This document shows positions 6,230-38,546 of a stretch of 64,000 nt of DNA, in pieces. A model generated the notes under the pieces. It was not told the DNA's origin. It worked only from the letters and a program-made list of their open reading frames with translations, and made no database searches. The stretch is from positions 1 through 64,000 of IMG/VR virus record IMGVR_UViG_3300009502_000036, one strand, 5' to 3'. The translations under genes were made by a program, and so were the position numbers. Numbering within the stretch: the first letter of the stretch is position 1; every line of letters starts with the position of its first letter. The DNA comes from a virus.

Positions 6230-6246
6230 ATAGTAGTGAAATGGTT

Positions 6247-6317: not shown

Positions 6318-6369
6318 CAAAGCAACAATAACCAATAAACGAAGAACAACATGATAAAGAAATAATATT

Positions 6370-20618: not shown

Positions 20619-20625
20619 GGTTAAA

Positions 20626-20919
20626 ATGGGATATAGTGTATACAAAGGTACTCGTGGAATAGCATACGACGTTAGAAATGAAATTTTTGTTAAAATACAA
20701 ACGAAAAAAGATCATCACTTTCATCATTCTAATTTTGGAATCGAATTTGATGAAATTGTTAGTTGTATGATACGTGAAGTATTTGATAAAAATTATGTGA
20801 AACTTGAACTCTATTTTCCTGAATACGAAACTGGAAGAGGTTCTATTATACCGTTTAAAAGATCAGATTGGTATTTAATGGTATCTAATTTTAATGTAAT
20901 ATCTTATGTTGGTAAATAA
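20626..20919 (+). CDS. KGTP/TTKDL family paralogue 7
   Basis: 97 aa. VYKGTRGIAYDV (5-16) is a good first motif; the second has changed to QTKKDHHF; the end has RSDWYLMV. It follows the RNA ligase gene by 7 nt and overlaps paralogue 8 by 14 nt. Confidence 0.8.
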   Translation: MGYSVYKGTRGIAYDVRNEIFVKIQTKKDHHFHHSNFGIEFDEIVSCMIREVFDKNYVKLELYFPEYETGRGSIIPFKRSDWYLMVSNFNVISYVGK

Positions 20920-21205
20920 CGCGACTACCTTTAAAGTTAATAAAGGTGTTTCTGTAATAGTTTTGCAAGAAATAGGTTTAAATGCTATTAATGGCACTAT
21001 ATTATCAACTGAGTTTAAAAAAATTCGTACGACTAAGGATTTGATTTTTTTCCCAACAGAAAGAATAGGAAAATCTTCTTGGATAAATTTAGTTCAATCC
21101 TTTAGAGATTCGCTCATAAAAACTGATAAATCATTATATCACTGTTTTCGTAGAGACGGTTGGTTTATTTTTATCAATAAATCAGATATCTTAGAAATAG
21201 TTTAA
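20906..21205 (+). CDS. KGTP/TTKDL family paralogue 8
   Basis: 99 aa. VNKGVSVIVLQE, then RTTKDLIFF around residues 45-53, SSWINLV and RRDGWFIFINK at the end. An insertion lies between motif 1 and motif 2. Function unknown. Confidence 0.8.
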   Translation: MLVNNATTFKVNKGVSVIVLQEIGLNAINGTILSTEFKKIRTTKDLIFFPTERIGKSSWINLVQSFRDSLIKTDKSLYHCFRRDGWFIFINKSDILEIV

Positions 21206-21221
21206 GCGAAGGAGTTTTTCC

Positions 21222-21509
21222 ATGTTAAAGGTTTGTAAAGGAACTGAATGCGTTGTAATAAATAAATCTTTCTGTTCGGAAAAATATATTATTGATGGAA
21301 TAATAAATGAAAAATTATTTAAATTTATACGAACAACTAAAAATTTAGAATTTAGTGGAGAAGAAGAAAAGCTTTACGACGATTTTCCTATTCTTTTTGA
21401 CAGTTTTGATGAGTTGTTTTATGACTTTGGCACTCCGGATATATATAATTGTTTTGAAAGAGAAGGTTGGTTTGTATTTTTTGAGAATTTTCCTGTTACA
21501 TATTGTTAA
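21222..21509 (+). CDS. KGTP/TTKDL family paralogue 9
   Basis: 95 aa with a ribosome-binding site (AAGGAG) before ATG. VCKGTECVVINK, then IRTTKNLEF and EREGWFVFFENF. Nearest to paralogue 8 in spacing; the pair looks like a tandem duplication. Confidence 0.8.
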   Translation: MLKVCKGTECVVINKSFCSEKYIIDGIINEKLFKFIRTTKNLEFSGEEEKLYDDFPILFDSFDELFYDFGTPDIYNCFEREGWFVFFENFPVTYC

Positions 21510-21517
21510 ATTATTAT

Positions 21518-21526
21518 TATATTATA
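21518..21526 (+). promoter_or_regulatory. early/middle-type promoter motif
   Basis: TATATTATA 53 nt before the ATG of the DNA ligase gene. The downstream CTAG/TTGAATAA part of the block is not conserved here. Confidence 0.4.
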
Positions 21527-21570
21527 TCATAGGTCTATAAGTGAAAGTAGTTAAATCTAAATAAATTGAA

Positions 21571-23421: not shown

Positions 23422-23478
23422 GGAGCTTCTTTCTTGAAATAAGTATCAAAAAATATTTTGTGTTTAGTGGAAAATGAT

Positions 23479-23487
23479 TATATTATA
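23479..23487 (+). promoter_or_regulatory. early/middle-type promoter motif
   Basis: TATATTATA preceded by TTTAGTGGAAAATGAT and followed by AAGTCGAGTAATTTA. It is 74 nt before the ATG at 23553, farther than usual, leaving a leader of about 65 nt. Confidence 0.5.
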
Positions 23488-23552
23488 AAGTCGAGTAATT
23501 TAAAAGAAACTTCTTTTCTATTGCTTCATCTTAATAAATTTTAGTTTATAAT

Positions 23553-23891
23553 ATGCAACACATTAAAGAGGGAACATTTGGTATTGCTTATTGTTATATT
23601 GTAAATCATGTTCACTATGACAAATACGTAAAATTAAATACTTCTATGGATTTATATTTTAATAAAAATGTAACCAAAATAGGAAAGTCTATTTGGGCTC
23701 ACGTTTTTGGTTTATATAAGAGTGATTACATACTACAGAATGTTATAAAAGAAATGTTAGCAAAAATACATCCGCAACCTATAGAGGATTTTATTACTGT
23801 TATTGATAAAGATGGATGGTTATTTTTTTTCCAACAAAAGAAATTATATCAGAAAAAGATATTTTTGAGTTTTAAATTACCGTTTGATTAA
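23553..23891 (+). CDS. KGTP/TTKDL family paralogue 10
   Basis: 112 aa. IKEGTFGIAYCYI, then LNTSMDLYF, SIWAHVF and DKDGWLFFFQQK. Keeps the order and spacing of motifs while the TTKDL element has drifted. It has its own promoter motif. Function unknown. Confidence 0.78.
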   Translation: MQHIKEGTFGIAYCYIVNHVHYDKYVKLNTSMDLYFNKNVTKIGKSIWAHVFGLYKSDYILQNVIKEMLAKIHPQPIEDFITVIDKDGWLFFFQQKKLYQKKIFLSFKLPFD

Positions 23892-23895
23892 AGAA

Positions 23896-24263
23896 ATGTC
23901 ATATACTATTTTTAAAATACTATCGCGATTGTTTTAAGAATAAAACCCGAAGACTGTTATTTTTGTGTTGGTACTAAAAAATATACACGAAGATTTCACG
24001 ATACCAACACAAAAATAACATTTATACATACAACAAAGGAACTAATATTTGAGGAGATGATGAATGCAGATGAGCTTAAACATTTATATTATCGTATTAA
24101 ACACGCGGTTTTACCGAAATCTTCAGAATACGTAAACTCATTTCATGAAAAACAATGGAGTTTTTTTAACAAATTAGATGAAACTGGCAATTGGATGCTT
24201 ATAGTTCCTTCTAATAAAGTCTTTAAAGATTTTTTAAACAAACCATATGCCAGTAGTTTATAA
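23896..24263 (+). pseudogene. KGTP/TTKDL family paralogue 11, frameshifted
   Basis: ATG 23896 opens 13 codons (SYTIFK...). After the A4 run near 23912 the credible frame reads NTIAIVLRIKPED, later FIHTTKELIF and TGNWMLIVPSN, ending at 24263. IFKNTIAIV aligns with VYKNTPAIV of paralogue 12, so the two are sister copies. An 18-bp inverted repeat lies inside it. Confidence 0.6.
23956..24019. repeat. 18-bp perfect inverted repeat inside a paralogue
   Basis: Arms 23956-23973 (GTTATTTTTGTGTTGGTA) and 24002-24019 are exact reverse complements with a 28-nt centre. A stem this long inside coding DNA is unusual; there is no U-tail after it. Confidence 0.85.
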
Positions 24264-24570
24264 AAACACACCAGCAATTGTGGTTCACAAACCACACATA
24301 GATTCAAATTTGTCTATAGAAAGTATTGAATATTGGATAGATGCTAAAATAATAAGCATGTTCACAACAAGGGATATTCATTTTAAAGAACAGGTTTTTT
24401 ATTTACCATTTTATATACGCAATAAGATATGTTATAAAATAGACAGTTCCATCAATATTTCCTACGCATTTCGAAACAAGGGAAAGACTTTTTTTAAACG
24501 TGAAGATGAAAACGGAATTTGGTTTCTTGTTGTTCCTTCAGATTATCAGTTATTGATGAGAATTGAGTAA
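24247..24570 (+). CDS. KGTP/TTKDL family paralogue 12
   Basis: 107 aa. VYKNTPAIVVHKP (4-16), FTTRDIHF and GIWFLVVPSDY. With paralogue 11 it forms a subgroup having KNTPAIV instead of KGTPGIAY and ending in VPS. It overlaps paralogue 11 by 17 nt. Confidence 0.75.
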   Translation: MPVVYKNTPAIVVHKPHIDSNLSIESIEYWIDAKIISMFTTRDIHFKEQVFYLPFYIRNKICYKIDSSINISYAFRNKGKTFFKREDENGIWFLVVPSDYQLLMRIE

Positions 24571-24608
24571 AAAGTTGTGAAAAATTTTTTATTTAAGTAA
24601 AAATGGTT

Positions 24609-24617
24609 ATATTATAC
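24609..24617 (+). promoter_or_regulatory. early/middle-type promoter motif
   Basis: TATATTATA followed by CTAGTTGAACAATTAAAC, 42 nt before the ATG at 24651. Together with the block at 12840 it is the best-conserved copy. Confidence 0.6.
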
Positions 24618-24650
24618 TAGTTGAACAATTAAACAAAACTAGGAGATTAT

Positions 24651-25640
24651 ATGAGAGGACGTACTGCAAAAGCCGCAATTTTAGCAGCAGAAAAATACAC
24701 AGAAGTTGGTGCTGCTAAAAGGGAAGTGAAGGTGCAAGCTCCAATTGTTCCAAAGAAAAGAATTAAAGGTCAGAAAGTAGTGATGGATGCAGAATATTTT
24801 GCACGTCTTGATCTAGAAGTTGAAGCACAACAGGAAGCTAGGAGAACTCGTACTGTAGTTGTTCCTAAGGAAGAAGATCCTAAAATAAAATTATCAAAAC
24901 AAATTACAAGTCTTCTTGGAGAACTCGACGAATTTGTAGACGAGGCTTTCGAAAAGAAAAATACTCCCAAATTCAATATCATCGCGTGGTTAAAAGAAAA
25001 AAACTTTGTAGACGATGAACACATTGAAGCTATTAAAAAGACGTATAGCAAACACCGCGCTGAACTTCAGGAAGCATATGATAAAGTATGCCCTCAGATG
25101 GTGGAAGGTTATTCCTTCCTCAATCCTACTCAAAAGAAAAAGATTTTAGATTTCTTTGATACTATTCTTAACGGATGCGATGATTTTCTTAACTTGCGTA
25201 GAAGGAAGAAAAGTATTGATAGAAAACCTCATTTTGCAAAGCCGTTAAGTGTTCAGAAGCAGGTGAAAACTCTAAAATATATGAAGGAAGCACCAGAATT
25301 TGGTGTTATTTCTATATCTCCGCAAGATATTGTTGGAGCAAAAACACTTTGGCTATTTAACACTGCATACAAACAACTTAGTTATTACCAAGCAACTGAT
25401 TATACAGGATTTAAAGTGAAAGGTTGTTCTCTTCTTAATTGGGATACAAAATCATCGAAAAGAAAATCTCTTAGGAAACCATTAGAAACTCTTAAAGCTG
25501 TTATGGGTGCAAATGGTAAAGAAATTCAGGATATTATGGACAAACTGACTACTAAAAGTGCAAGTGTTAATGGACGAATTAATGATAAGGTAATTATCCT
25601 TAAGGTTGGAAAAGAACTTATAAAAGGTCAACAGGTTTAA
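24651..25640 (+). CDS. conserved T4-like phage protein, unknown function
   Basis: 329 aa after a good ribosome-binding site (AGGAG). The N-terminal 90 residues are basic and Ala-rich, then helical. From about residue 195 basic segments (RRRKKSIDRKP) lead into a beta-rich C-terminal part with SISPQDIVGAKTLWLFNT and GFKVKGCSLLNWD. Similar proteins occur in marine T4-like phages. The many basic residues suggest nucleic-acid binding. Strong promoter motif upstream implies high expression. Confidence 0.65.
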   Translation: MRGRTAKAAILAAEKYTEVGAAKREVKVQAPIVPKKRIKGQKVVMDAEYFARLDLEVEAQQEARRTRTVVVPKEEDPKIKLSKQITSLLGELDEFVDEAFEKKNTPKFNIIAWLKEKNFVDDEHIEAIKKTYSKHRAELQEAYDKVCPQMVEGYSFLNPTQKKKILDFFDTILNGCDDFLNLRRRKKSIDRKPHFAKPLSVQKQVKTLKYMKEAPEFGVISISPQDIVGAKTLWLFNTAYKQLSYYQATDYTGFKVKGCSLLNWDTKSSKRKSLRKPLETLKAVMGANGKEIQDIMDKLTTKSASVNGRINDKVIILKVGKELIKGQQV

Positions 25641-25769
25641 TGCAGAAAAGCTTCAGAGAGTGACCCAGATGAATTATTATCTGTTATTTGATATAACATA
25701 TAGCAATGATTTTTAACTCTCTCTTTGAACGTTTTATTTGCTGAATGTAACTATTAACATCACAAAAGA

Positions 25770-26060
25770 ATGAAAGATATATTAGGAAAAGATTTAAATG
25801 TCGGTGATACCGTAATTATAATAGTACCAAATTATAGGGAATTAGCTAAAGGTATTATTATACGCTTCACAAAGCAGTATGTATTTGTACAATATGAGAC
25901 TCGACGGTATAAAGGTCAAATTTTAGAAATAAAACAAAGGCCTGATCAATTGGTAAAAATTATTGAATATGATGAAAACGTTGAATTGCTCTTAAAAAGA
26001 TATGGAACTCCTATGGTAATGCTTACATCGGGAGATAACAAATTGACTACAAAAAATTAA
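25770..26060 (+). CDS. hypothetical small barrel protein
   Basis: 96 aa. DLNVGDTVIIIVPNYRELAKGIIIRF and YVFVQYETR look like an SH3/KOW-type fold, common in small phage proteins. The 129 nt before it contain no gene and only a weak GAGAGT/ACTCTC pairing. Confidence 0.55.
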   Translation: MKDILGKDLNVGDTVIIIVPNYRELAKGIIIRFTKQYVFVQYETRRYKGQILEIKQRPDQLVKIIEYDENVELLLKRYGTPMVMLTSGDNKLTTKN

Positions 26061-26079
26061 TCTTTAAATTAGTTATATT

Positions 26080-26391
26080 ATGAATGAAGCAAAATTTACA
26101 CCTGGACCATGGAAATTTCGGCAGCATTCCGTCGATTCACAATATTTTGGCAATATAACAGGAACTTATGGAAAAACTCCCGAAGGATATACTTCTATAA
26201 GAACAGTTGCGTTGAATTTGAATCATGGAACAGAAGAAGAGAACATGGCAAATGCTAAATTAATAGAAGCAGCTCCTGTTATGTATAATGCTTTAAAGGA
26301 TATTAGAGATATTTTTGAATCGCATGGACAAGAAATGTTTAGTAATTCGGTTAGAGAAATAGATAAAGTTTTATTGCAAGCCCGAGGTTAA
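26080..26391 (+). CDS. conserved phage protein (TPGPW type)
   Basis: 103 aa. FTPGPWKF near the start and MANAKLIEAAPVMYNALKDI near the end are the two hallmarks of a very common phage/prophage family of unknown function. Complete length. Confidence 0.8.
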   Translation: MNEAKFTPGPWKFRQHSVDSQYFGNITGTYGKTPEGYTSIRTVALNLNHGTEEENMANAKLIEAAPVMYNALKDIRDIFESHGQEMFSNSVREIDKVLLQARG

Positions 26392-26393
26392 AA

Positions 26394-26477
26394 ATGATAA
26401 TAACTACTAACGTCTTTGTTGCAGCGCATGGTCTAATGATCATTTGTTTTGTATTGTTTTTGTGTATTAGAAAATAA
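26394..26477 (+). CDS. 27-aa membrane microprotein (putative)
   Basis: 27 aa, one hydrophobic segment over most of its length, ending in a basic IRK. Starts 2 nt after the previous stop. Could be a small membrane peptide or a chance frame. Confidence 0.35.
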   Translation: MIITTNVFVAAHGLMIICFVLFLCIRK

Positions 26478-26496
26478 GTTTAAAACCAAATAAACA

Positions 26497-26685
26497 ATGG
26501 AAACGAAATTTACCAAAGGTCCTTGGTCAATAAATCCTGAAATTAGATACTCTATTATATTTGCTATGGTTGCGGGCTCTACAGGATCTATAGGACTATT
26601 GCAATTTTTAATTTTATTATTTATTGTGAATGCGATTTCTATTATAAGTATTATAATAGGTATTAACACTGACAAAGAAATTTAA
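26497..26685 (+). CDS. TPGPW-like start fused to membrane segments
   Basis: 62 aa. It begins METKFTKGPWSINPE, copying the start of the gene at 26080, but then turns into a strongly hydrophobic region with two likely membrane helices. Looks like a partial duplication recombined onto another gene. Confidence 0.5.
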   Translation: METKFTKGPWSINPEIRYSIIFAMVAGSTGSIGLLQFLILLFIVNAISIISIIIGINTDKEI

Positions 26686-26695
26686 TTTCTATATT

Positions 26696-27265
26696 ATGAG
26701 TTATATTAAAATATCGACCGATAAAGTTTTAAATGCTTGTGATAAATATATAGCAGCTTGTGAAGAATCTGTTAAAATGTCACGTGAAATTTTAATAAAA
26801 TGGCAAATGAAATGGAGCATTTTTAATTTATTTCCAGCAAATAACGAAACTATTGCGCAACAAAGAGCCGAGAAAAGAGAAAGTTGGTATTGGGTTCTAA
26901 ATCATCAAAGTAAATCTTTACACATTATAGATAATGTAAAAATTCTTTGCAAATTATCTGAAAACGGTACTATAATGTTATCAAATGATGCTGTGGACAT
27001 TTTAGAACATTTTCTAGATGGATCTGTGGATCTCTTTAAATGTTTTGATAAAGAATCGATAACAGTTGAAGAACTATATAATCGCGCGTACGATGAAAAG
27101 ATAGCAAAACAACGTGATAGAATTAATAAGCTTGAAGAAGCTTTGTTGTCTATAGCAGAAGGTATAGACAATTTTCCTAAAACAAATATACTCCCAAGAA
27201 CAACTCTTATTTATAAGCTTATTCAATGGGATTTTGAAAACGAAAAATGGAAAGATGACGAATGA
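26696..27265 (+). CDS. hypothetical helical protein
   Basis: 189 aa, predominantly helical. ESWYWVLNHQSKSLHIIDN and the C-terminal ALLSIAEGIDNFPKTN are the most distinctive stretches. Overlaps the next gene by 4 nt. Unrecognised. Confidence 0.6.
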   Translation: MSYIKISTDKVLNACDKYIAACEESVKMSREILIKWQMKWSIFNLFPANNETIAQQRAEKRESWYWVLNHQSKSLHIIDNVKILCKLSENGTIMLSNDAVDILEHFLDGSVDLFKCFDKESITVEELYNRAYDEKIAKQRDRINKLEEALLSIAEGIDNFPKTNILPRTTLIYKLIQWDFENEKWKDDE

Positions 27266-27642
27266 GAACCTCACTTGAATTTAAATTTGAAAAAGAATTA
27301 GCAAACAATCACTTTAATGTTGAAGTTGGTTCTTTATGGGATTACGATAGATCGTTATGTAATTCATCTTATACAAATAGATTAAAGGTGGAAAGATTAG
27401 AAAAAACAAAGAATACTACACTCGTCTATTTTAAACAAAAAATGCCTTATTTGGCATATGACATATCTTATTTTGATGGAAAAACATTTAAGCCTCATGT
27501 TAAATTAGGTAATGGTGGGTGGGAGTGTTTAGAATGCGGTGATGAAATACAAAGAGCTAGAGATTGGAGAGACGAGTATTGTAATAATTGTGGAGCAGAA
27601 ATAGATTGGGAAAAAGTAATTCGCGAGCAAAAAGAAGATTGA
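27262..27642 (+). CDS. protein with C-terminal zinc ribbon
   Basis: 126 aa. The N-terminal 85 residues are beta-rich; WECLECGDEI and EYCNNCGAEI near the C-terminus form a CxxC-CxxC zinc ribbon. Coupled by ATGA to the previous gene and located just before rnh. Function unknown. Confidence 0.6.
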   Translation: MRTSLEFKFEKELANNHFNVEVGSLWDYDRSLCNSSYTNRLKVERLEKTKNTTLVYFKQKMPYLAYDISYFDGKTFKPHVKLGNGGWECLECGDEIQRARDWRDEYCNNCGAEIDWEKVIREQKED

Positions 27643-27670
27643 AAGCAAAAAATTTTAAAAATAAAAATAA

Positions 27671-28519
27671 GTGATTTTATTAGATAGTAGTCAGTTTTTC
27701 ATAGGGGCATTAATGTCTCAGTCTGTAAATGGTAAAGTAGAAGAGAATATTGTTAGACATATTCTACTAAATTCAATTCGTGAGAAAAGAGTTAAATTTC
27801 ATAAAGAATTTGGCGAGTTAGTTTTTTGTATAGACTCCAGACATTATTGGAGAAAAGACGTCTTTTCTCATTACAAATCACATAGAAAAGCTGGTAGAGA
27901 CAAGTCAACATTTGATTGGGAAGCAGGGTTTAAAGTTATAGAAATATTAAAAGCAGAACTAAGAGAAACATTTCCTTATAAAATAATAGAAGTTCATGGT
28001 GCAGAAAGTGATGATATTATAGCAACGTTAGTAAAAAACAATTTGCAAGAAAAAAATCTTATTCTTTCTTCAGATAAAGATTTTATACAGCTGCAAAAAT
28101 ATCCAAACGTTTTTCAATACGATTCTGTTAGAAAAAAATGGTTAAAAGATAAAAATCCTGAATTGTTTTTACGTGAGCATATAATTCGTGGAGATGCTAG
28201 CGATGGAGTTCCAAATATGTTATCTGCAGATGATGCTCTATCTAATCCAGAAAAAAAGCAAAAATCAATATTTAAAAAGAACTTAGATGTTTGGTTAAAA
28301 GATAGCGAAGAAGATTTTTACAATTCTTTATCAAATAAAGAACAATCAAATTATTCTAGAAATAAGATGATGATTGATTTGGATAAGATACCTTCAGAAA
28401 TTACAGAAAAGATACTTCAGGCGTACGCAGAGGAACCTTTGGGAAATAGGAATAAGATCCTTAATTACATGATAAAAAATAGACTGAGAGAATTAACAAA
28501 AATAATAACTGATTACTAA
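27671..28519 (+). CDS. rnh: T4 RNase H-like 5'-3' exonuclease
   Basis: 282 aa, GTG start. ILLDSSQFFIG and VFCIDSRHYWRK...YKSHRKAGR match the N-terminal half of T4 RNase H (FEN-1 family). VHGAESDDIIATLV and LSSDKDFIQLQ carry the metal-binding acidic residues, and the IIRGDASDGVPN helix-hairpin follows. T4 RNase H is 305 aa. It removes RNA primers and trims 5' ends of lagging-strand fragments. Its place upstream of gp33/59/32 parallels T4 gene order, with extra genes inserted. Confidence 0.93.
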   Translation: MILLDSSQFFIGALMSQSVNGKVEENIVRHILLNSIREKRVKFHKEFGELVFCIDSRHYWRKDVFSHYKSHRKAGRDKSTFDWEAGFKVIEILKAELRETFPYKIIEVHGAESDDIIATLVKNNLQEKNLILSSDKDFIQLQKYPNVFQYDSVRKKWLKDKNPELFLREHIIRGDASDGVPNMLSADDALSNPEKKQKSIFKKNLDVWLKDSEEDFYNSLSNKEQSNYSRNKMMIDLDKIPSEITEKILQAYAEEPLGNRNKILNYMIKNRLRELTKIITDY

Positions 28520-28520
28520 A

Positions 28521-28688
28521 ATGAAATGGATTAAATCTATATTAGTCGCGGCATCAATGCAATTTTTTTTACATTTTGTAGGAATTTACTTTTTTTCTAT
28601 AAACATTCCTCACGTGTTTATTGCTATAGTTATGGTATGTGGAATAATTTTTTCAAACATTGATAGATACATTTTTAAAGATGAATAA
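28521..28688 (+). CDS. small membrane protein
   Basis: 55 aa with two hydrophobic helices (about residues 5-26 and 31-46) and a charged C-terminus. It starts 1 nt after rnh ends and overlaps the Sel1 gene by 8 nt. Function unknown. Confidence 0.5.
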   Translation: MKWIKSILVAASMQFFLHFVGIYFFSINIPHVFIAIVMVCGIIFSNIDRYIFKDE

Positions 28689-29136
28689 AATGAAAAGTTT
28701 ATTGATATTTTTATCACTGTTTATTTTTAATATTGGAATTTGTTTTACTACAGATATTAAAAATAGCGCAGATGCAGGAGATTATGTATGCCAATTTATC
28801 GTTGGCAGAGCATATGAACAGGGTGATGGTGTAAGACAGAACTATGAGGAAGCTTTAAAGTGGTACGAGTTTTCTGCACATCAAGATTATGCTCCTGCTC
28901 AAAATAATCTTGGATCGCTATACGATAGAGGTTTGGGTACAGAAAAAAATTATCAGGAAGCTTTAAAATGGTATAGAAAAGCTGCTGATAATGATCAACC
29001 AAATGCGCAATATAATTTAGGAAGACTATATGAATATGGTCTTGGTGTAGATATAAATTGGAGAAAAGCTGCTTATTGGTATCAAAGGGCAAACGATCAG
29101 GGTATTCCACTTCTACCACATCAAATTAGAGATTAG
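28681..29136 (+). CDS. exported Sel1-repeat protein
   Basis: 151 aa from ATG 28681 (a second ATG at 28690 is possible). A basic start and hydrophobic core (about residues 5-22) form a signal peptide. Three Sel1-like repeats follow, each with the pattern A-x-x-x-LG-x-Y-x-x-G-x-G-V...A-x-x-WY-x-x-A. Sel1 proteins are helical scaffolds for protein contacts; an exported one probably acts in the periplasm. A phage copy suggests host-envelope modulation (inference). Confidence 0.8.
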   Translation: MNKMKSLLIFLSLFIFNIGICFTTDIKNSADAGDYVCQFIVGRAYEQGDGVRQNYEEALKWYEFSAHQDYAPAQNNLGSLYDRGLGTEKNYQEALKWYRKAADNDQPNAQYNLGRLYEYGLGVDINWRKAAYWYQRANDQGIPLLPHQIRD

Positions 29137-29263
29137 TAAAACCATTTATCTTTTAGAGTAATATTCTAATAATTTTATTAGTCTTGACCACCCTCTCCTC
29201 TCCCTAAAAACAAATCCATCCTCAAAAAAAATTTCCATTTCTAATAAAAGTTACTATATTTTA

Positions 29264-29271
29264 TATAAATA
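29264..29271 (+). promoter_or_regulatory. T4-type late promoter motif
   Basis: TATAAATA, 30 nt before the ATG at 29301, in a 164-nt gap. It matches the T4 late promoter consensus. Confidence 0.6.
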
Positions 29272-29300
29272 GATTTAATTATATAAAGTAATAACTTACA

Positions 29301-29825
29301 ATGGCATTAGATAATATTCTAGATAGTTTTGATGCAGGGACTGATTTTGGTTGGTCATTCGCATCTGATGCAGAAGTTAATGCAAAAACTTCAGAGTTGC
29401 AAAATAAACTACAAGAAACGAAAGAATCTTCAGACGATATCAAGACTCTTCAATTAGAGATAAATAAGATAGTAGAGCATCAGCAATCTATCGATTCTAT
29501 TCTTGAATCTAATACTAAGAGAATAGAGAAAAAATTAGATCAAATCCTTACTTTTACCACTGAAAAACTTCATGCTATGATAACGGAGCAGGGATCTTCG
29601 ATGGCAGAGTTATCTAGTTTGATATGTTCTTCTGGAAATGATGCATTAGAAGAAAAGTATGATGCGGCGCTTAAAGAAAAAATGAGAAAAATAGAACAGT
29701 TAATACTTCCATTTTTAAAGGGTCTTACAAAGGATCCTGATAAAGAATATATCCGCTGGGCAAATAGACTACCTTTCCTAGAAGCAAAAGCAAAAGAATT
29801 AATAGCAATAACAAGAGATAAATAA
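29301..29825 (+). CDS. conserved T4-like coiled-coil protein
   Basis: 174 aa. A central coiled coil (residues about 30-80) and a C-terminal DPDKEYIRWANRLPFLEAKAKEL, a tail that recurs in small proteins of marine T4-like phages. It is preceded by a late promoter motif and so may be a virion or packaging protein (inference). Confidence 0.6.
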   Translation: MALDNILDSFDAGTDFGWSFASDAEVNAKTSELQNKLQETKESSDDIKTLQLEINKIVEHQQSIDSILESNTKRIEKKLDQILTFTTEKLHAMITEQGSSMAELSSLICSSGNDALEEKYDAALKEKMRKIEQLILPFLKGLTKDPDKEYIRWANRLPFLEAKAKELIAITRDK

Positions 29826-29917
29826 ATTGTAAACCGCTTTATCTAGATTCTCTATACTCATAGAGAAAAATCTACAGTGTCGTATAATTCATCAAAAAAT
29901 ATAATTTTAAATAAATC

Positions 29918-30097
29918 ATGCCATTATACTACTACAATTGTCAAGATTGTGATTATCACTTTGAAAAAATATTACCAATAATAGAAAGAGATGAACCGCT
30001 TCATGTTCCATGTCCTAACTGTGAATCAAATCGCATCGTACGTGAAATAGGGGCAACTCCTAATTTTTGGAAATGTGAACTTCCAACAAAATCTTAA
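29918..30097 (+). CDS. FmdB-type zinc ribbon, copy A
   Basis: 59 aa. PLYYYNCQDCDYHFEKIL followed by CPNCESNRIVREI: CxxC...CxxC with the spacing of the FmdB family. It stands 9 nt before a longer relative at 30107, so the pair is a tandem duplication. FmdB proteins are presumed regulators; the role is unproven. Confidence 0.65.
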   Translation: MPLYYYNCQDCDYHFEKILPIIERDEPLHVPCPNCESNRIVREIGATPNFWKCELPTKS

Positions 30098-30106
30098 TAA
30101 AATTCC

Positions 30107-30367
30107 ATGCCAACATATCAATACAAATGTACTAAATGTGATTATGATGAAGAGATAAATGTGTTAATTGATGACAGAGATAAAATTACGTTAGAACCTT
30201 GTCCTAATTGTGGAGAAATTTCTGTAGAAAGAATCTTCGGTTCACCTATTATCAATCTAGGTTTTCGTGGTTCTACTATTCAAAGCAAAACCTCTGATGC
30301 TTGGAAAGATAAACTTAGAGAAATTAAGAAAAAGGCGGGACCTAAAGCAACCGGAATAGAAGTATGA
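30107..30367 (+). CDS. FmdB-type zinc ribbon, copy B
   Basis: 86 aa. MPTYQYKCTKCDYDEEI...LEPCPNCGEISVERIFG is the full FmdB signature (Y-x-Y-x-C-x2-C...C-P-x-C-G). The basic C-terminal 35 residues (KDKLREIKKKAG) are usual in phage members. A DNA-binding or regulatory role is inferred from the family. Confidence 0.8.
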   Translation: MPTYQYKCTKCDYDEEINVLIDDRDKITLEPCPNCGEISVERIFGSPIINLGFRGSTIQSKTSDAWKDKLREIKKKAGPKATGIEV

Positions 30368-30418
30368 AAAGAGAAATTCGTTTTATTTAGAGAATACAAA
30401 CATTATAAACCAAATTAC

Positions 30419-32632
30419 ATGAGTAAAGGAAAAAAATTTCTAAGCGACTTAAAATTTGTAACAGACTATAGCAAATGGAGACCCGAATTTAACAGATACG
30501 AATCATGGGAAGAATCTTGTGAAGCAGTTGTTAATACCCATAGAGTAAAATATGCAAGCAAATTAGATATTCTAAAAGAATACATTAACGAAGCAGAACA
30601 ATCTTATAAAGATAAATTAGTATTTGCATCACAGAGAAATTTGCAGTTTAGAGGAGAACAGATTTTTAAGCATAATACTAGACTTTATAATTGTGCTGCT
30701 GTGTACATGGATAAAACACAAGTATTTTCACAAGTTAGTTATCTTAGTTTATCAGGATGTGGAGTTGGGATTTCTATGCTAAGAAAATGGGTAGATAAAC
30801 TTCCAACATTAACCCCAAGAAAAAAAGAAAAAATAAAAAATTTTATAATTCCAGATAGTATAGAGGGTTGGTCAGATGCTTTTGGTATTTTGGTTAGTTC
30901 TTTTTGCTCTAAAAACTCCCACTTTAAAGAGTACGAAGGTTCTATTGTAAGATTTGATTATTCTCAAATAAGACCTAAAGGAGCTATGATAGCTGGTGGG
31001 TTTAAGGCACCAGGACCGGCACCACTTAAACAAGCAATAGAAAGAATAGAATCATTATTAGAAAATGAAATTAAATATGGCGAAACTAAATTCCGTTCTA
31101 TAATATGTTATGATACCTTAATGCATATTGCAGATGCTATTCTTTCTGCTGGTGTTAGACGTTCTGCCTTAAGTATTATTATAGATCCTCAGGATCTAGA
31201 GTTATTAAATGCAAAAACAGGAAACTGGAGAGATACTAATAAACAAAGAGAAAGATCTAACAATTCTGTTGGATTAATTAGAGGTTCTTTTTCTGAAGAA
31301 TATTTTACATCTTTAGTAAAGAAAAATAATGGAATGTCTGATATTGGATTTATATTCTTAAATAACGAATATGAAGTTATGAATCCTTGTGCAGAAATAT
31401 CATTCACACCTATTTTAGATTTAAAAAGAGAAATTACAGGAGTATCACTTTGTAATTTAAGTGAAATAAATGGAAAAGCATGTAAAACTAAAGAAAAATT
31501 CTTAAAGGCATGCAAATCTGCAGCAATTTTTGGTACTTTACAAGCAGGATATACAGATTTTTCTTATCTTGGATCTATTACAGAAGAGATCGTAAGAAAA
31601 GAAGCATTGATTGGAGTTTCTATTACGGGATGGATGAACACTCCTGACATATTTAATGAAGAGTGGTTGCAGGACGGCATTAATCTTATAGAGTTGACGA
31701 ATAGACAATTAGCAGAAATTCTTGAAATTAATCCGGCTGCTCGATTAACGACAGTGAAACCTTCAGGAAATATTTCTGTTTTAATTGGTTGTTCATCAGG
31801 AATTCACCCTGAACATTCTAAGAGATATTTTAGAATAATGCAACTTAATAAAGAGTCTGACACTGCTAAATGGTTAATAGAAAATAATCCTGATATTATA
31901 GAAGAATCTGTTTGGAGTGCAAACAACACCGATTATGTGGTATATTCTCCTGTTGAAAATGAACTTGGCACGATATATAAAGATGTAATGCGTAATTTAA
32001 TGCATTTAGAAAAGATTAAATTTGTTCAAGAAAATTGGGTTATGAAAGGACAAATATCAGAAAGATGTATAATGCCGAAAACTCAGAATAACGTTTCTTG
32101 CACTGTTATTATAGATGATTATGACGAAGTTGCAAAATATGTATTTGATAATCAAAATGTATTTACTGCAGTTAGTTTCCTTTCGGAGTTTGGTGACAAA
32201 GATTATCCACAAGCTCCATTTACATCAGTTCTAAATTCAGAAGAACTTTTAGAAAAATATGGAGACGCTGTCATTTTTGCATCTGGACTTATTGTTGATG
32301 GATTACATTACTTTGATCAGAATCTATGGGAAGCCTGTTTACATGTTACTTCTAAAGAAAAGAAAGTAGATGGAACACGAACCGAAGTTCTTCTTAAAAA
32401 GGATTGGATAAGGAGGGCAAAACAGTTCTCTAAAAACTATTTTAAAAATGATGTAGAAAAGATGATTTATTGTCTAAAGGACGTGCATTTGTGGTACAAA
32501 TGGAATAAAATAGCAAAATCTTTCAAAGAAGTAGATTTTGAGAAAATACTCACAGCACCCACGTTTAATGACGTAAGTGATTATGGTGCAGTTAGTTGTT
32601 CGGGCGGTGCCTGTGAAATAACTAGAATTTGA
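30419..32632 (+). CDS. nrdJ: class II (adenosylcobalamin) ribonucleoside-triphosphate reductase
   Basis: 737 aa, the size of the monomeric Lactobacillus-type enzyme. SLSGCGVG holds the first active-site cysteine, NPCAEISF the radical cysteine, SLCNLSEI its redox partner and C-terminal CSGGAC the reducing pair. It makes dNTPs from NTPs using B12, so the host must supply cobalamin. T4 itself encodes a class I NrdA/NrdB pair, so this is an independent solution in the same replication region. It ends before a terminator hairpin. Confidence 0.93.
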   Translation: MSKGKKFLSDLKFVTDYSKWRPEFNRYESWEESCEAVVNTHRVKYASKLDILKEYINEAEQSYKDKLVFASQRNLQFRGEQIFKHNTRLYNCAAVYMDKTQVFSQVSYLSLSGCGVGISMLRKWVDKLPTLTPRKKEKIKNFIIPDSIEGWSDAFGILVSSFCSKNSHFKEYEGSIVRFDYSQIRPKGAMIAGGFKAPGPAPLKQAIERIESLLENEIKYGETKFRSIICYDTLMHIADAILSAGVRRSALSIIIDPQDLELLNAKTGNWRDTNKQRERSNNSVGLIRGSFSEEYFTSLVKKNNGMSDIGFIFLNNEYEVMNPCAEISFTPILDLKREITGVSLCNLSEINGKACKTKEKFLKACKSAAIFGTLQAGYTDFSYLGSITEEIVRKEALIGVSITGWMNTPDIFNEEWLQDGINLIELTNRQLAEILEINPAARLTTVKPSGNISVLIGCSSGIHPEHSKRYFRIMQLNKESDTAKWLIENNPDIIEESVWSANNTDYVVYSPVENELGTIYKDVMRNLMHLEKIKFVQENWVMKGQISERCIMPKTQNNVSCTVIIDDYDEVAKYVFDNQNVFTAVSFLSEFGDKDYPQAPFTSVLNSEELLEKYGDAVIFASGLIVDGLHYFDQNLWEACLHVTSKEKKVDGTRTEVLLKKDWIRRAKQFSKNYFKNDVEKMIYCLKDVHLWYKWNKIAKSFKEVDFEKILTAPTFNDVSDYGAVSCSGGACEITRI

Positions 32633-32668
32633 TTATTTTTCTTTTGACGTAAAAGTGTTATATTATAA

Positions 32669-32703
32669 ATATAAAGCTACTAAAGATGCTAGTAGCTTTA
32701 TAT
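32669..32703 (+). terminator. Rho-independent terminator after the reductase gene
   Basis: ATATAAAGCTACTA / TAGTAGCTTTATAT, a perfect 14-bp stem with a 7-nt loop, followed by TATTATTTTT. A TATATTATA/TATAAATA sequence overlaps its left edge, so promoter activity there is also possible. Confidence 0.8.
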
Positions 32704-32785
32704 TATTATTTTTGCATCTTAAAAATATGGGACATTCGAGGCAGATCTCGACGTACATATAGTTTTTTTCACTAATTTCGGAAAA

Positions 32786-33388
32786 ATGAATGTATCACAT
32801 ATTCGAAAAAAATGGAGTACATATCTCCTAGGCGCATTGACCCTAATAACCTTTATATGGTTTGCGAAAGTAGATTCAGAAGGTAGGGCAGAAACGCTAT
32901 TGAAACAGCCTATTAAAACAATAAACCAAGAACAGCTAGGACCTGTTCAATTAAATGCATTACCGGATTCCATAAAGATTAAGGAACCAGAAAAGAAAAA
33001 GCCAGTTAATAAATCAGAATTAAATTGGTTAGCAAAAAATATTTATCATGAAGCGCGTGGACAGTCTATAAAAGGACAGTATGCAGTTGCAATAGTAACA
33101 CTCAATAGAGTCAAATCTGGAAAATTTCCTGAGTCTATAGAGAAAGTTGTAACTCAACCAGGTCAATTTTCATGGTACCATCATAAAACAATTAATAAAA
33201 TTACAGAGAGCGATTCTTTTGAAATAGCAAAAGAAATAGCAAGAAATGTCCTTGAAGAGAATGGTACTCTTTACAAGGAATCTAATAGTGAATTAAAAGG
33301 AGCACTTTATTTCTGTGAAAAACGTATAAAAACTCCTAAAAATAGAAAGGTTACTGCTAGAATAGGGAGTCATATTTTCTATATATGA
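32786..33388 (+). CDS. SleB-like cell wall hydrolase, membrane-anchored
   Basis: 200 aa. An N-terminal membrane helix (about residues 13-27) and a linker precede a Hydrolase_2/SleB domain: LAKNIYHEARGQSIKGQYAVAIVTLNRV contains the catalytic Glu, and GALYFCEKRI and IGSHIFY close the domain. Such enzymes cut peptidoglycan. A signal anchor puts the domain in the periplasm, so it may assist lysis or entry apart from the GH19 endolysin at 40192. Confidence 0.88.
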   Translation: MNVSHIRKKWSTYLLGALTLITFIWFAKVDSEGRAETLLKQPIKTINQEQLGPVQLNALPDSIKIKEPEKKKPVNKSELNWLAKNIYHEARGQSIKGQYAVAIVTLNRVKSGKFPESIEKVVTQPGQFSWYHHKTINKITESDSFEIAKEIARNVLEENGTLYKESNSELKGALYFCEKRIKTPKNRKVTARIGSHIFYI

Positions 33389-33411
33389 CATAATATTAAC
33401 AACAAAATTAA

Positions 33412-33636
33412 ATGTTAAAACTAGTTACGCGTGACGAATTTGTTGATGAAATAAATAAAATAATTTTTAACGATGGTTGTTCTGTTATTGAAGCAATTTG
33501 TGAGTATGCAGAATCTAATGATATAGAATATTCCAAATTGGTTCCTTTTATCAATGCAACATTTAAAAATTCAATTATTTTTGAGGCCGAACAGAGAAAT
33601 ATGATGAAAAAGCAAAATGGACAATTACCAATCTGA
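33412..33636 (+). CDS. 33: gp33-like late transcription co-activator
   Basis: 74 aa. SVIEAICEYAESNDIEYSKLVPFINATFKNSIIFEAE follows the pattern of gp33-type proteins in T4-like phages (helical, DAI-x-Y-x-E-x-N-x-I...L-I-N-x-x-L-K). Gene order gp33-gp59-gp32 is as in T4. In T4, gp33 links RNA polymerase to the sliding clamp for late transcription, consistent with the TATAAATA motifs here. Similarity is moderate, hence the confidence. Confidence 0.68.
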   Translation: MLKLVTRDEFVDEINKIIFNDGCSVIEAICEYAESNDIEYSKLVPFINATFKNSIIFEAEQRNMMKKQNGQLPI

Positions 33637-34306
33637 ACACTCTGAAAAGGGATTGTTCGTTTATGAGATGTATTCTGCTATAAAATTGCATTTCACTTCT
33701 AATTATGACTTCTTCAAGTACCACGGAAAAACAAAGTCTTCGGTAAAAAATCGAGAAGATATGAATATGTTTATTCAATCAAAAAACTTTAAATTATCCG
33801 TGGGACTTGCAAAGAAGATTAAAACTGAGGATGCGATTATAGAATTTCTTATAGCAAATATATTAAAAAATAATAAAATATGGTTAAACGATTTATTAAG
33901 TGATGAAGCAGAAGATGAATGGATTAAATGGAAACGAACTCAAAATTCTCTTACATATAATTTTATTACAGATGTGAAGTGGATTTTAAGTAACAATTTG
34001 AAGTTTAATTCCTATCTAGATGCTACTAAAGGAGTACCTCCAATTTTAGAATTTCTTTTGCATGATAAAATCAAGATAGAAACAGTTGTTATTATTGATT
34101 GGTTAACCGGATTTCTTAAACAGAAAGTTCTTAAAGACAAAAATTTTACTATATTTTCTAATATTATAATAAATATAGAAAAGTATAAACCTTTATTTTT
34201 ACATTATCATAATTTTTATGATAGAGATAAATTGAAGTTTAAAAAAATTCTTCTAGAGAAGATAAACATTCAAAAAGAGCAAACAGAAAATATTTTGCCC
34301 TTTTAA
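33617..34306 (+). CDS. 59: gp59-like helicase loader
   Basis: 229 aa (T4 gp59: 217). SEKGLFVYEMYSAIKLHF, YDFFKYHGK, FLIANILKNNKIWLNDLL and KIETVVIIDWLTGFL align by pattern with T4 gp59, which loads the gp41 helicase onto gp32-coated forks. It overlaps the gp33-like gene by 20 nt and is followed by gp32, as in T4. Confidence 0.88.
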   Translation: MDNYQSEHSEKGLFVYEMYSAIKLHFTSNYDFFKYHGKTKSSVKNREDMNMFIQSKNFKLSVGLAKKIKTEDAIIEFLIANILKNNKIWLNDLLSDEAEDEWIKWKRTQNSLTYNFITDVKWILSNNLKFNSYLDATKGVPPILEFLLHDKIKIETVVIIDWLTGFLKQKVLKDKNFTIFSNIIINIEKYKPLFLHYHNFYDRDKLKFKKILLEKINIQKEQTENILPF

Positions 34307-35266: not shown

Positions 35267-35295
35267 AAAGGGGTAGAATATTCTATCCCTTTTTA
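35267..35295 (+). terminator. Rho-independent terminator after gp32
   Basis: AAAGGGGTAGAA, TA, TTCTATCCCTTT with one G-T pair, then a T-run. A typical strong stop after the abundant gp32 message. Confidence 0.85.
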
Positions 35296-35313: not shown

Positions 35314-36315
35314 ATGTTTAACAAAGAATTTGGTGAGCAAAAAGCACTTCTAAGAGAATTTAACATTCCCGAATGTATTCTTAAAAAATATAACGAGCAT
35401 CATAGATTCTATCATAATCAAAATCATATCAATGATTTGTGGATTAAAGGTAGCAAAATGATTACTAAACATGACATTGGTGTACCGTATGATCTAGGAT
35501 TAGCAATTATTTTTCATGATATTATATATGATCCAAAATCAAAGGATAATGAAAAGAAAAGTGCAGAATTTTTAATGTCTTTTGCTAAGAATGACAAATT
35601 TCCAACTAGCAGATATGATATTTTTATAAGAGCATATAATGCCATTCTAGATACAGAGAATCACGAACCAAAGACTGAATTGGGTAAAGTTTTATGTGAA
35701 ATAGATGTTAGTTCTCTTCATGAAGACTTTGATGTTCTTCTAAAAAATGAGGAACTTATAGCAAAAGAATATCAATATTTACCTTATGAAAAATACGTAA
35801 GTGGAAGAATAAATTTTTTAATTGAGTTCTATAAAAATAACATCGATTTAGGAAAGGTGTTTAATTCTTATATTTCCTTCGTAAAAAATAAAAAGCCTAA
35901 TATTGGACTTTATGCAGGTACCTTTAATCCGTTTCATAAAGGGCATCTTAATATTTTAGAGAAGGCGGAGAAAATATTCGATAAGGTTATTATTTTATAC
36001 GGCAATAATACAGCTAAAGATAATTCTATTACTAAAATTGTTCCTAAGTATATAGAAAATAGAGAAATAGTTCATCATAGCGGTTTATTGGTAGATTATA
36101 TCAATTCATTACCTTATGATGTTACTCTTATAAGAGGACTAAGAAATACTACAGATTTGCAAGCAGAATTAAATCTTTATAGATTTTTGAATGATATGAA
36201 ACCTGATATTAAAATTATTAATATTTTTTGCGATGCAGAATGCGAACATATTTCTAGTAGTTCTTTAAAGGAAATAGAAAAATTTACGTCTATTAAAAAT
36301 TACATTGTAGAATGA
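35314..36315 (+). CDS. HD-domain + CoaD-like nucleotidyltransferase fusion
   Basis: 333 aa. Residues 1-185: YNEHHRFYHNQNHI and IIFHDIIYDP (H68-D69) give an HD phosphohydrolase of the COG4339 type. Residues 195-333: GLYAGTFNPFHKGHLNIL with the HxGH motif, TLIRGLRNTTDLQ and a final ISSSSLKEI match phosphopantetheine adenylyltransferase (CoaD). Separate CoaD-like genes occur in some T4-like phages; the fusion is unusual. It may act in CoA or NAD/nucleotide metabolism, with the HD part hydrolysing a related phosphate. Its stop overlaps the first micro-ORF. Confidence 0.88.
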   Translation: MFNKEFGEQKALLREFNIPECILKKYNEHHRFYHNQNHINDLWIKGSKMITKHDIGVPYDLGLAIIFHDIIYDPKSKDNEKKSAEFLMSFAKNDKFPTSRYDIFIRAYNAILDTENHEPKTELGKVLCEIDVSSLHEDFDVLLKNEELIAKEYQYLPYEKYVSGRINFLIEFYKNNIDLGKVFNSYISFVKNKKPNIGLYAGTFNPFHKGHLNILEKAEKIFDKVIILYGNNTAKDNSITKIVPKYIENREIVHHSGLLVDYINSLPYDVTLIRGLRNTTDLQAELNLYRFLNDMKPDIKIINIFCDAECEHISSSSLKEIEKFTSIKNYIVE

Positions 36316-36437
36316 AATATAAAACAGATAACATAGTGAAATATATACCGAATCTGCTTCTAAGTTTTTATTGTAGTCACAAATATAGAAATATAACATT
36401 ACTATTAATAAAATTAGACTGGATTTTAGTAAGATGA
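36312..36437 (+). CDS. micro-ORF array member 1
   Basis: 41 aa: starts MKYKTDNIVKYI, ends LDWILVR. Begins within the stop of the HD-CoaD gene (ATGA) and ends overlapping the next ATG. First of eleven similar units. Confidence 0.5.
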   Translation: MKYKTDNIVKYIPNLLLSFYCSHKYRNITLLLIKLDWILVR

Positions 36438-36584
36438 AATATAATGTTCATACCGTAAATTATGCAATTCATAATGCTTATTTTTGGAGTGTTTAGTATA
36501 GATTTTTATAATTTTTATATCAAATTGTATTATTATTATGCAATTATTTTTAAACATCAGATCAAAAACTTAATTGTTAGATGA
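36434..36584 (+). pseudogene. micro-ORF array member 2, frameshifted
   Basis: MKYNVHTVNYAIHNAYF then a stop; in the next frame FGVFSIDFYNFY...IKNLIVR runs to TGA 36582-36584 over the next ATG. The shift sits in the T5 run near 36480. Confidence 0.5.
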
Positions 36585-36701
36585 ACTATAACATACATAC
36601 AGTGTTATGAAAGTTGGAATGGGGGACAATGTTATATGTTTGAAGGTGAGTTTAACTATCAGAAAAATACCATTTACAATAGTATAATAAAAAATGATTA
36701 A
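36581..36701 (+). pseudogene. micro-ORF array member 3, frameshifted
   Basis: MNYNIHTV then a stop; a shifted frame CYESWNGGQCYMFEGEFNY continues to TAA 36699-36701. The family start is clear, the rest diverged. Confidence 0.45.
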
Positions 36702-36726
36702 TACGATTAAATTTCTACACTAGAAA

Positions 36727-36888
36727 ATGAAACATTATAAGACGGGATTAATTTTTAGTAAAAATTTATGTTATTTTGATAAAGAACTTCTTAGAAATGA
36801 AATTTTTTCTAGTGTTCCTATTTGGATTATTTTTAATGGTGTAAGTGTTAGAAGAATGGAATTATTTTTTAATCTTTTAGCTCAATGA
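36727..36888 (+). CDS. micro-ORF array member 4
   Basis: 53 aa: MKHYKTGLIFSKNLCYFDKE at the start, hydrophobic second half. ATGA overlap with member 5. Less similar to the MKYN type. Confidence 0.5.
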   Translation: MKHYKTGLIFSKNLCYFDKELLRNEIFSSVPIWIIFNGVSVRRMELFFNLLAQ

Positions 36889-37031
36889 AACAATATAGAA
36901 TTAAACAACACAATGTTTTTCTGGGAGGTTGTTATTGGGAAGTTGGTGAATTATTATTACCGTCTGATATCCAACTTACCTTTCCTTTACGAAAATATTT
37001 AAATCTAAAATTTGGTTTAATTTTAATATAA
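36885..37031 (+). CDS. micro-ORF array member 5
   Basis: 48 aa: MKQYRIKQHNVFLGGCYWEV at the start. One-base overlap (TAATG) with member 6. Function unknown. Confidence 0.5.
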   Translation: MKQYRIKQHNVFLGGCYWEVGELLLPSDIQLTFPLRKYLNLKFGLILI

Positions 37032-37213
37032 TGAAATATAATGTTCGTAGTAAGATGAAATATAATATAGATGCGATTCCGATTTATTTCAATTTTCATA
37101 TTTTTTGTTCAATTTATCCTCGGCATGAATTGGGTTCGATAATAAACAATCTTTCAATTCTATACTTTCTTGTAAATATAACAGATCTACTTGATAAGAC
37201 CAAAATAAGATGA
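37031..37213 (+). CDS. micro-ORF array member 6
   Basis: 60 aa: MKYNVRSKMKYNIDAIPIYF holds two copies of the MKYN start, joined at AGTAAGATGAAATATAAT. This looks like the scar of a recombination between two units. ATGA overlap with member 7. Confidence 0.55.
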   Translation: MKYNVRSKMKYNIDAIPIYFNFHIFCSIYPRHELGSIINNLSILYFLVNITDLLDKTKIR

Positions 37214-37404
37214 AAAAATATAACACAGAAAAAATAAATCGTAATATTACGAGAATATATTCTATAGTATTTCGCGACTCTAATTATTATTTTATTAAGT
37301 TTCAAAATCAATTAATTTACACCAGATACGGTATACCATGTCTATGGTTAGAAGAACTTGAACGTGATCTTTATCAATCTAGATGTTTTAATGTAGACTT
37401 TTAA
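37210..37404 (+). CDS. micro-ORF array member 7
   Basis: 64 aa: MKKYNTEKINRNITRIYSIV at the start, ending in CFNVDF. The longest intact unit. A 3-nt gap to member 8. Confidence 0.55.
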   Translation: MKKYNTEKINRNITRIYSIVFRDSNYYFIKFQNQLIYTRYGIPCLWLEELERDLYQSRCFNVDF

Positions 37405-37407
37405 AAA

Positions 37408-37560
37408 ATGAAATATAATATTAACACAGTAAATGAAAATTTAAAAGCTAGCATTCTAGTAGATTTTTTCTATTCGGATTTCATGTCTTTCGCTCATATA
37501 TTCAAAAATCCAGAATATAAATTACTATTAGAAAAATTTCCCGGGATTTTAGTAAGATGA
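37408..37560 (+). CDS. micro-ORF array member 8
   Basis: 50 aa: MKYNINTVNENLKASILVDF at the start and FPGILVR at the end, the clearest form of both family ends. ATGA overlap with member 9. Confidence 0.6.
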   Translation: MKYNINTVNENLKASILVDFFYSDFMSFAHIFKNPEYKLLLEKFPGILVR

Positions 37561-37715
37561 AATACGATATTAACAATATAAATATATTTCTAGGAGAGAA
37601 TTTGCATCCAATTAAAAGTTTTTATTCGAATTTTAGATTTTATATGGATAAATATAGAAATATACCAGAACATGTATTGCTATCAATAAAACTAAACCAG
37701 ATTTTAGTAAGATGA
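37557..37715 (+). CDS. micro-ORF array member 9
   Basis: 52 aa: starts MKYDINNINIFLG, ends KLNQILVR. The first 28 bases, with 12 before them, are repeated exactly at member 10 (40 bp: 37545-37584 and 37700-37739). Confidence 0.6.
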   Translation: MKYDINNINIFLGENLHPIKSFYSNFRFYMDKYRNIPEHVLLSIKLNQILVR

Positions 37716-37831
37716 AATACGATATTAACAATATAAATAATAAAATAACGGGTGATTGGTCACCTTATGATTTTGCTTTTGATATTTTAGCATTTGAAAT
37801 TAAAGTTTATTTACAAAATTGGATCATATGA
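37712..37831 (+). CDS. micro-ORF array member 10
   Basis: 39 aa: starts MKYDINNINNKITG, ends LQNWII. Shares its start with member 9 through the 40-bp repeat. ATGA overlap with member 11. Confidence 0.55.
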   Translation: MKYDINNINNKITGDWSPYDFAFDILAFEIKVYLQNWII

Positions 37832-37980
37832 CGAATAACTATAACACGAAAAACATAAATTATGAAATTCATAGTAATATCTGTAATAAAAGGTTTGGAA
37901 TGCCTTTAATTGGCGATTTTGTATATGAAATATATTTAGCAATAAGTAGTTCGGTATATTTACCATATATAGTTAGATGA
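37828..37980 (+). CDS. micro-ORF array member 11
   Basis: 50 aa: starts MTNNYNTKNINYEIHSN, ends YLPYIVR. Its NINYEIH matches VNYAIH of member 2. ATGA overlap with the glycosyltransferase gene. Confidence 0.55.
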   Translation: MTNNYNTKNINYEIHSNICNKRFGMPLIGDFVYEIYLAISSSVYLPYIVR

Positions 37981-38546
37981 TACATACATTTATACCTTAT
38001 GCGCACCGATCAGAGAATAAAAATCTTGGCGCAGTTTATAATCGATATATGAATATGATTAACGATGACGATTGGGCATGTTTTTTAGATGCAGATGCAA
38101 TGTTTACGACATCTGATTATCATGAGCAATTAGAAACTATTACAACTGCTATAGATTCAAAGAATTTAAATGTTGGTCTATTAACTGCAGTTACGAATAG
38201 AATAGGTAATGTTGAACAAATCGTATTTTCTAAAGATTCCGACGATGCTTATAATCATGATTTTTCTTTTCATAGAAAAATAGGAAAAAATTTACAGGAA
38301 AAAAATAGGTATCTTTTAAAAGAATGCAAAGATCCTATTAGCGGAGTTGTTTTATTATTACCTAAAAGAGTATGGAAACAAACAGAAGGATTTATAAATG
38401 GATTTTTAAGTGTAGATAATCATATCGACTACGCTATAAGAAGAGCTGGTTTTCGTACTTGTATTATGGAAGGATTATATGTCTATCATTGGTATAGAAA
38501 TGATTGGAAAGAAACCAATGGATTAGCTCCTACCGGATATAAATAA
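37977..38546 (+). CDS. GT-A-type glycosyltransferase
   Basis: 189 aa. LGAVYNRYMNMINDDDWACFLDADAMF gives the acidic DxD (D38-A-D40) that binds the metal and nucleotide sugar. Later FINGFLSVDNHIDYAIRRAGFRT resembles the acceptor-side helix of family 2 enzymes. Shorter than typical (about 250 aa), lacking the first Rossmann strand, so either truncated or minimal. It could sugar-modify phage DNA, virion proteins or the host surface. Confidence 0.75.
   Translation: MIHTFIPYAHRSENKNLGAVYNRYMNMINDDDWACFLDADAMFTTSDYHEQLETITTAIDSKNLNVGLLTAVTNRIGNVEQIVFSKDSDDAYNHDFSFHRKIGKNLQEKNRYLLKECKDPISGVVLLLPKRVWKQTEGFINGFLSVDNHIDYAIRRAGFRTCIMEGLYVYHWYRNDWKETNGLAPTGYK

Follow-up and report, generated by a model that had tools for sequence, protein, structure and literature searches.

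The phage record examined here (IMG/VR record IMGVR_UViG_3300009502_000036) is 78,091 bp long, and the window, meaning the whole stretch of DNA that was analysed, comprises its first 64,000 nucleotides. The record belongs to a T4-like phage, as judged from a gp32-like SSB, a gp59-like loader and a gp5-like baseplate hub (family profiles), together with a ribonucleotide reductase (RNR). A hairpin followed by T-rich DNA (35267-35292, + strand), a likely terminator, separates the gp32-like SSB gene from an inserted block, the upstream half of which is a fusion gene of an HD domain and a CoaD-type nucleotidyltransferase (HD-CoaD; 35314-36315, + strand, 333 aa). HD-CoaD leads through an ATGA overlap into an array of eleven tandem + strand ORFs (36312-37980), which is followed at the downstream insertion border by a glycosyltransferase-like gene (GT; 37977-38546, + strand). 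In tblastn searches against phages, most of the HD-CoaD fusion is matched in only two records, which are 735-kb huge-phage sequences; the others match one half of it.

Queries with the RNR recovered L008, which represents this phage in a different sample (99.99% identical over window positions 20419-34163, 13.7 kb, and stopping 2 kb before the array), and L009/L010, the closest relative found (RNR 63% identical). L009/L010 keep the gene order RNR-SleB-gp59-SSB-GT, with a GT orthologue in L009 that is 59% identical, and have a 47-bp SSB-GT spacer in place of HD-CoaD and the array. Since these 47 bp occupy the same position in a syntenic genome, HD-CoaD and the array appear to fill an accessory cargo slot. 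A hairpin follows the SSB gene in both genomes (the match in the window is terminator-like, and the L009 stem was scored on the other strand), so that the inserted block is bounded by the hairpin and the GT start. Neither HD-CoaD nor the array units occur in 128 related loci. A single long conserved gene at this site in related genomes, which the original prediction had named as evidence against a chain of micro-ORFs, was not found, and L009/L010 have no gene there.

The units of the array (u1-u11, all on the + strand) are 39-64 codons long, and nine of them are open. Unit u1 (36312-36437, 41 aa) is intact, and its C-terminal half is homologous to u8 and u9. The next two are broken: u2 (36434-36584) has the family start MKYNVHTVN and loses its frame near a T run, its 3' part being open in another frame and ending in LIVR, and u3 (36581-36701) starts with MNYNIHTV before a change of frame. 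Units u4 (36727-36888, 53 aa) and u5 (36885-37031, 48 aa) are divergent members. Unit u6 (37031-37213) carries two in-frame starts 24 nt apart, at 37031 and 37055, giving frames of 60 and 52 aa. It is followed by u7 (37210-37404, 64 aa), u8 (37408-37560, 50 aa), u9 (37557-37715, 52 aa), u10 (37712-37831, 39 aa) and u11 (37828-37980, 50 aa), the last of which has an ATGA link to the GT gene. Nine of the 12 joints, those with the flanking genes included, are ATGA overlaps; the exceptions are a TAATG at u5/u6, a gap of 3 nt at u7/u8 and a gap of 25 nt at u3/u4. The chain lies where the original prediction had placed it, with two frameshifted members and a double start in the sixth as described there, but the statement that most units begin MKYN or MKYD was too generous: a strict MKY[ND] start is present in only five of the eleven (u2, u6, u8, u9 and u10), the remainder showing the variants MKYK, MNYN, MKHYK, MKQYR, MKKYN and MTNNYN.

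The array is far beyond what chance would produce. When its sequence was shuffled 2000 times with dinucleotides preserved, ATG-initiated ORFs of at least 38 codons numbered 0.75 on average and 5 at most, against 10 observed; they covered 6.5% of the stretch on average and 43% at most, against 90%; and no more than one ATGA link was seen among them, against five. A search for comparable chains in the window and in 1.36 Mb of related loci found elsewhere at most five linked small ORFs, which encode mutually dissimilar proteins. A profile built from the units matches all eleven array frames (E values from 2e-5 to 3e-19), and its next best match in the 78-kb record has an E value of 0.25; the scores of the units are inflated because the profile was built from them, and the information lies in the sharp edge. 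DNA alignments between pairs of units, scored against shuffles, lend independent support for paralogy (z of 9-11 for u1/u9, u8/u9 and u1/u8, and of 4-6 for several other pairs), and at the protein level the units are 19-53% identical to u1. These sequence comparisons support the assignment of the units to one paralogous family, and the array is real, unusual and apparently lineage-specific.

No homologue of u9 or of the exact joint motif described below was found in viral_contigs, and tblastn with u7, u8 and u9 found none in 50,697 phage records. A degenerate start-motif pattern, which as a positive control recovers u2, u9 and u10 in the window, gave five matches over all viral contigs and the genome contigs of 84,980 species, whose frames are either short or unrelated and have no array in their vicinity. 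The unit profile, run with a positive control, had no match in 43 whole related records; its matches in huge phages carrying HD or CoaD relatives are weak and mostly interrupted by stops, and were taken as chance. These searches reach close relatives or a single start motif, near-identical genomes possibly being withheld from them, and the units are orphans within that scope. PHROGs, Pfam, NCBIfam and PADLOC provided no credible family match for them. A hit of u7 to phrog_24803 (E 0.0042) was set aside; no other unit matches that family, and its profile matches nothing in the record. AlphaFold2 models made with the units as alignment are helical (pLDDT 61-62, pTM 0.23-0.27) and too poor for a fold search.

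The joints between the units are the most repetitive part of the array. Eight stretches of 15 nt or longer are repeated exactly within it, seven of them at gene joints. The motif TTTTAGTAAGATGAAATA recurs there as originally described, in three exact + strand copies (36424-36441, and from 37547 and 37702), the only ones that the 78-kb record contains, and the longest repeat, reported before as joining members 8/9 and 9/10, is indeed an exact 40-bp identity between the u8 end plus u9 start (37545-37584, + strand) and the u9 end plus u10 start (37700-37739, + strand). Copies of 15-21 nt connect the joints u1/u2, u8/u9 and u9/u10 and the double start of u6, and u2 and u6 have a 16-nt start in common. 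The starts and ends of the units group differently. At their C-terminal ends u1, u8 and u9 form a group (35-36 of 48 nt matched, the 99.9th percentile of random pairs being 27), and at their starts u2, u8, u9 and u10 do so (19-27 of 27 nt), with u1 outside that group at 16 of 27 nt to u8, u9 and u10. Unit u10 thus has a start identical to that of u9 and an unrelated end (18 of 48 nt), and u1 is the reverse. The first 24 nt of u6 (37031-37054, + strand) contain the u2-like 16 nt, which run directly into 19 nt (37048-37066) that repeat the u1/u2 joint; the double start of u6 reads as a unit cut down to its first 16 nt and abutting a joint copy. Mosaic starts and ends together with a collapsed unit are consistent with the pattern expected from exchange and deletion at the joints, the recombination events being reconstructed from it because the pattern comes from one genome. 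The C-terminal ILVR or IVR of several units is encoded by bases that also form the sequence just upstream of the next start, and its conservation may thus owe nothing to protein function.

We consider it rather probable that the array is a phage-specific family of proteins of 40-64 residues, expanded in tandem in a cargo slot of a T4-like phage, reshuffled at its joints, expressed as a polycistron and perhaps serving as an anti-host repertoire. The translation, coupling and recombination steps of this scheme are ones that we infer. The array would be read as one polycistron, and termination-reinitiation at ATGA probably carries translation from unit to unit. A Shine-Dalgarno-like stretch is present at only about ten of 40 window gene starts sampled, so that starts coupled to the preceding stop would offer a natural reading of the array. 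Every unit begins with ATGA (mostly ATG AAA) and gives a stop to the preceding frame, so that an exchange at the joints would leave the stop/start grammar intact. Unequal exchange between the joint repeats of 15-40 bp, or between shorter microhomologies, could add units, delete them and re-pair their starts and ends, and the centres would meanwhile diverge quickly. The original proposal of growth by recombination at the junctions with diversifying centres is partly supported by the paralogy, the concentration of repeats at the joints, the start and end mosaics, the collapsed unit and the behaviour of the centres described below, the mechanism itself being deduced from these traces.

Whether the units are still maintained as proteins bears on the strongest competing explanation, according to which the array expanded once, selection is now relaxed, the open frames are left over, the conserved ends reflect recent duplication and there is no present function. 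The two frameshifted units and the collapsed one speak for such a decay and indicate that single units are dispensable, and the array is missing from the nearest relative, L009/L010. Differences between units are spread flatly over the three codon positions (17/15/16 for u1-u9 and 19/19/15 for u8-u9), and pN is about equal to pS between aligned units, which are paralogues from one genome; this fits relaxed selection too. A hint of more change at positions 1 and 2 in the C-terminal ends of u8 and u9 was not accepted as positive selection, pN exceeding pS in just 65% of bootstraps. The coding signal of the array is weak, with codon scores of -0.08 to 0.33 against 0.24-0.29 in neighbouring genes, little first-position G enrichment and a G+C content of 23.7% against 31.3%, which again suits decay. 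On the other side, neutral drift simulated without indels would keep a frame open with a probability of only 0.09-0.25 at 0.2 substitutions per site and 0.03-0.15 at 0.3, and nine of the eleven frames are open at such divergences, where drift closes most; nine of the 12 joints also keep their ATGA, and functionless DNA is usually lost quickly from phage genomes. With openness kept and sequence not, the units fit fast-changing proteins better than junk, and an array that functioned until recently and is now decaying under relaxed selection is a less likely alternative.

It is less probable still, in our judgement, that the array is translated and arose by ordinary duplication, its joints being conserved as translation-coupling signals made of the last codons and the start codon, not as recombination sites. 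The scarcity of Shine-Dalgarno-like motifs in the window suggests that ATGA coupling may matter, units ending in ...AGATGA place the same bases before each start, and the C-terminal ILVR or IVR coincides with that upstream stretch. Such signals would not explain why the 40-bp identity extends 28 nt into the next unit, third codon positions included, why the start and end groupings conflict, or why the stub in u6 looks as if the DNA from a start to a joint had been deleted, and the ATGA joints u4/u5 and u10/u11 link their units without the motif.

An assembly artefact, in which several phages sharing an environment contributed reads that were collapsed or joined as chimeras, would be consistent with the presence of the array on one contig only, L008 ending before it; we regard it as very improbable, given the near-identity of L008 to the record over 13.7 kb and the ordered, mostly in-frame units, which are ATGA-continuous with both neighbours. 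Finally, the phage carries a complete diversity-generating retroelement (DGR) of its own at record positions 64701-67308 (L007 701-3308), outside the window and 28 kb from the array, with an Mtd-like tail protein bearing a VR, a TR and an RT; the VR/TR pair is 124 nt long, 22 of its 24 differences fall at TR adenines and the TR lies 177 nt downstream. It is a means of targeted protein diversification within this genome, but it acts at adenines and on no protein other than its own target. Diversification of the units by it has next to no likelihood and was rejected, since all four bases are affected by the mismatches found in the array between joints and no copy of array sequence exists elsewhere in the record.

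Several known systems resemble the array in part. The internal proteins of T-even phages inhibit host restriction, and their diverse members have nothing but an N-terminal signal in common. Ip1, Ip2 and Ip3 from the ip loci are, like the array units, small and highly variable; they are accessory proteins of T4-like phages whose sequences agree in an N-terminal stretch and differ beyond it (PMC3012670; PMC12373910). Ip proteins, in contrast, bear a capsid targeting sequence, are packaged and are then injected, and it is the array units that form a tight eleven-member polycistron. The capsid targeting sequence contains a prohead protease cleavage site, [LI]xE. By eye, the array starts (MKYNINTVN-like) contain such a site in u9 only (FLGE, residues 11-14). 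A start overlapping the upstream stop, as in coupled polycistrons, is found at nine ATGA joints and one TAATG joint of the 12.

In T4, an anti-defence locus is amplified when short homologies recombine (PMC9391042), and the amplification of dmd-tifA, or that driven by SegB, likewise gains tandem copies through short flanking homology (PMC9391042; PMC13096335). The array has short homologies at the ends of its repeated segments, namely the exact joint repeats of 15-40 bp, and has no near-identical tandem copies, identity to u1 being as low as given above and the joints alone being identical. Copies of the tifA type are recent, whole-locus segments, whereas the array has one tiny, strongly diverged gene per unit, i.e. 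it would be old or repeatedly reshuffled. According to Tetart et al. in 1998, recombination between conserved motifs reportedly swaps the specificity of T-even adhesins. The array resembles that arrangement in having variable coding segments between short, conserved and possibly recombining motifs, but adhesin swapping concerns domains of tail-fibre adhesins, whereas the array consists of separate micro-genes.

By analogy with these systems, the products may act on varied host targets, as defence inhibitors or in host takeover, the divergent copies forming a repertoire. This role is argued from context, and an anti-host function taken by itself is the best guess, though a tentative one. A more specific version, in which the array is a self-renewing micro-gene cassette whose joints are recombination sites that re-pair centres and ends with the grammar intact and so supply a changing set of anti-host proteins, seems to us doubtful. 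Phage genomes are rich in tiny orphan genes of obscure origin, and an array with intact, divergent, frameshifted and collapsed copies side by side would offer a snapshot of the birth and loss of such genes. If the joints do recombine, units starting with ATGA would amount to a simple rule for assembling new small proteins with the operon unbroken, and the array would be a natural library for finding inhibitors of bacterial defences.

Some further features of the record were noted. The T4-type late promoter TATAAATA occurs inside u9 (37577) and u10 (37732), where it is considered incidental because promoter-like copies elsewhere precede gene starts by about 37-45 nt and these two do not; it stands 37-44 nt before several gene starts (window positions 29264, 39621, 48122, 60636 and others). 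Bacteroidota-type promoters show no excess, and Rfam detects two tRNAs only in the window. A long simple repeat at about 5970-6260, reading WLWLWRW on the + strand and RAIARAI on the - strand, extends as far as a tRNA (6247-6318) whose anticodon is unresolved. Near the record end, an IS21-type transposase-like gene (rve + Mu-transpos_C_2; record 76021-77586, L007 12021-13586) points to an insertion or to a contig that is chimeric at its end. A second phage-specific family comprises ten small paralogues, some in tandem, that share KGTxxIxx...TTKDLxF...W(F/Y)xFxP (11748-12266, 16918-17343, 18014-18325, 18567-18848, 20626-20919, 20906-21205, 21222-21509, 23553-23891, 24057-24263 and 24247-24570); among the related loci, it is present in L008, the same phage, only.
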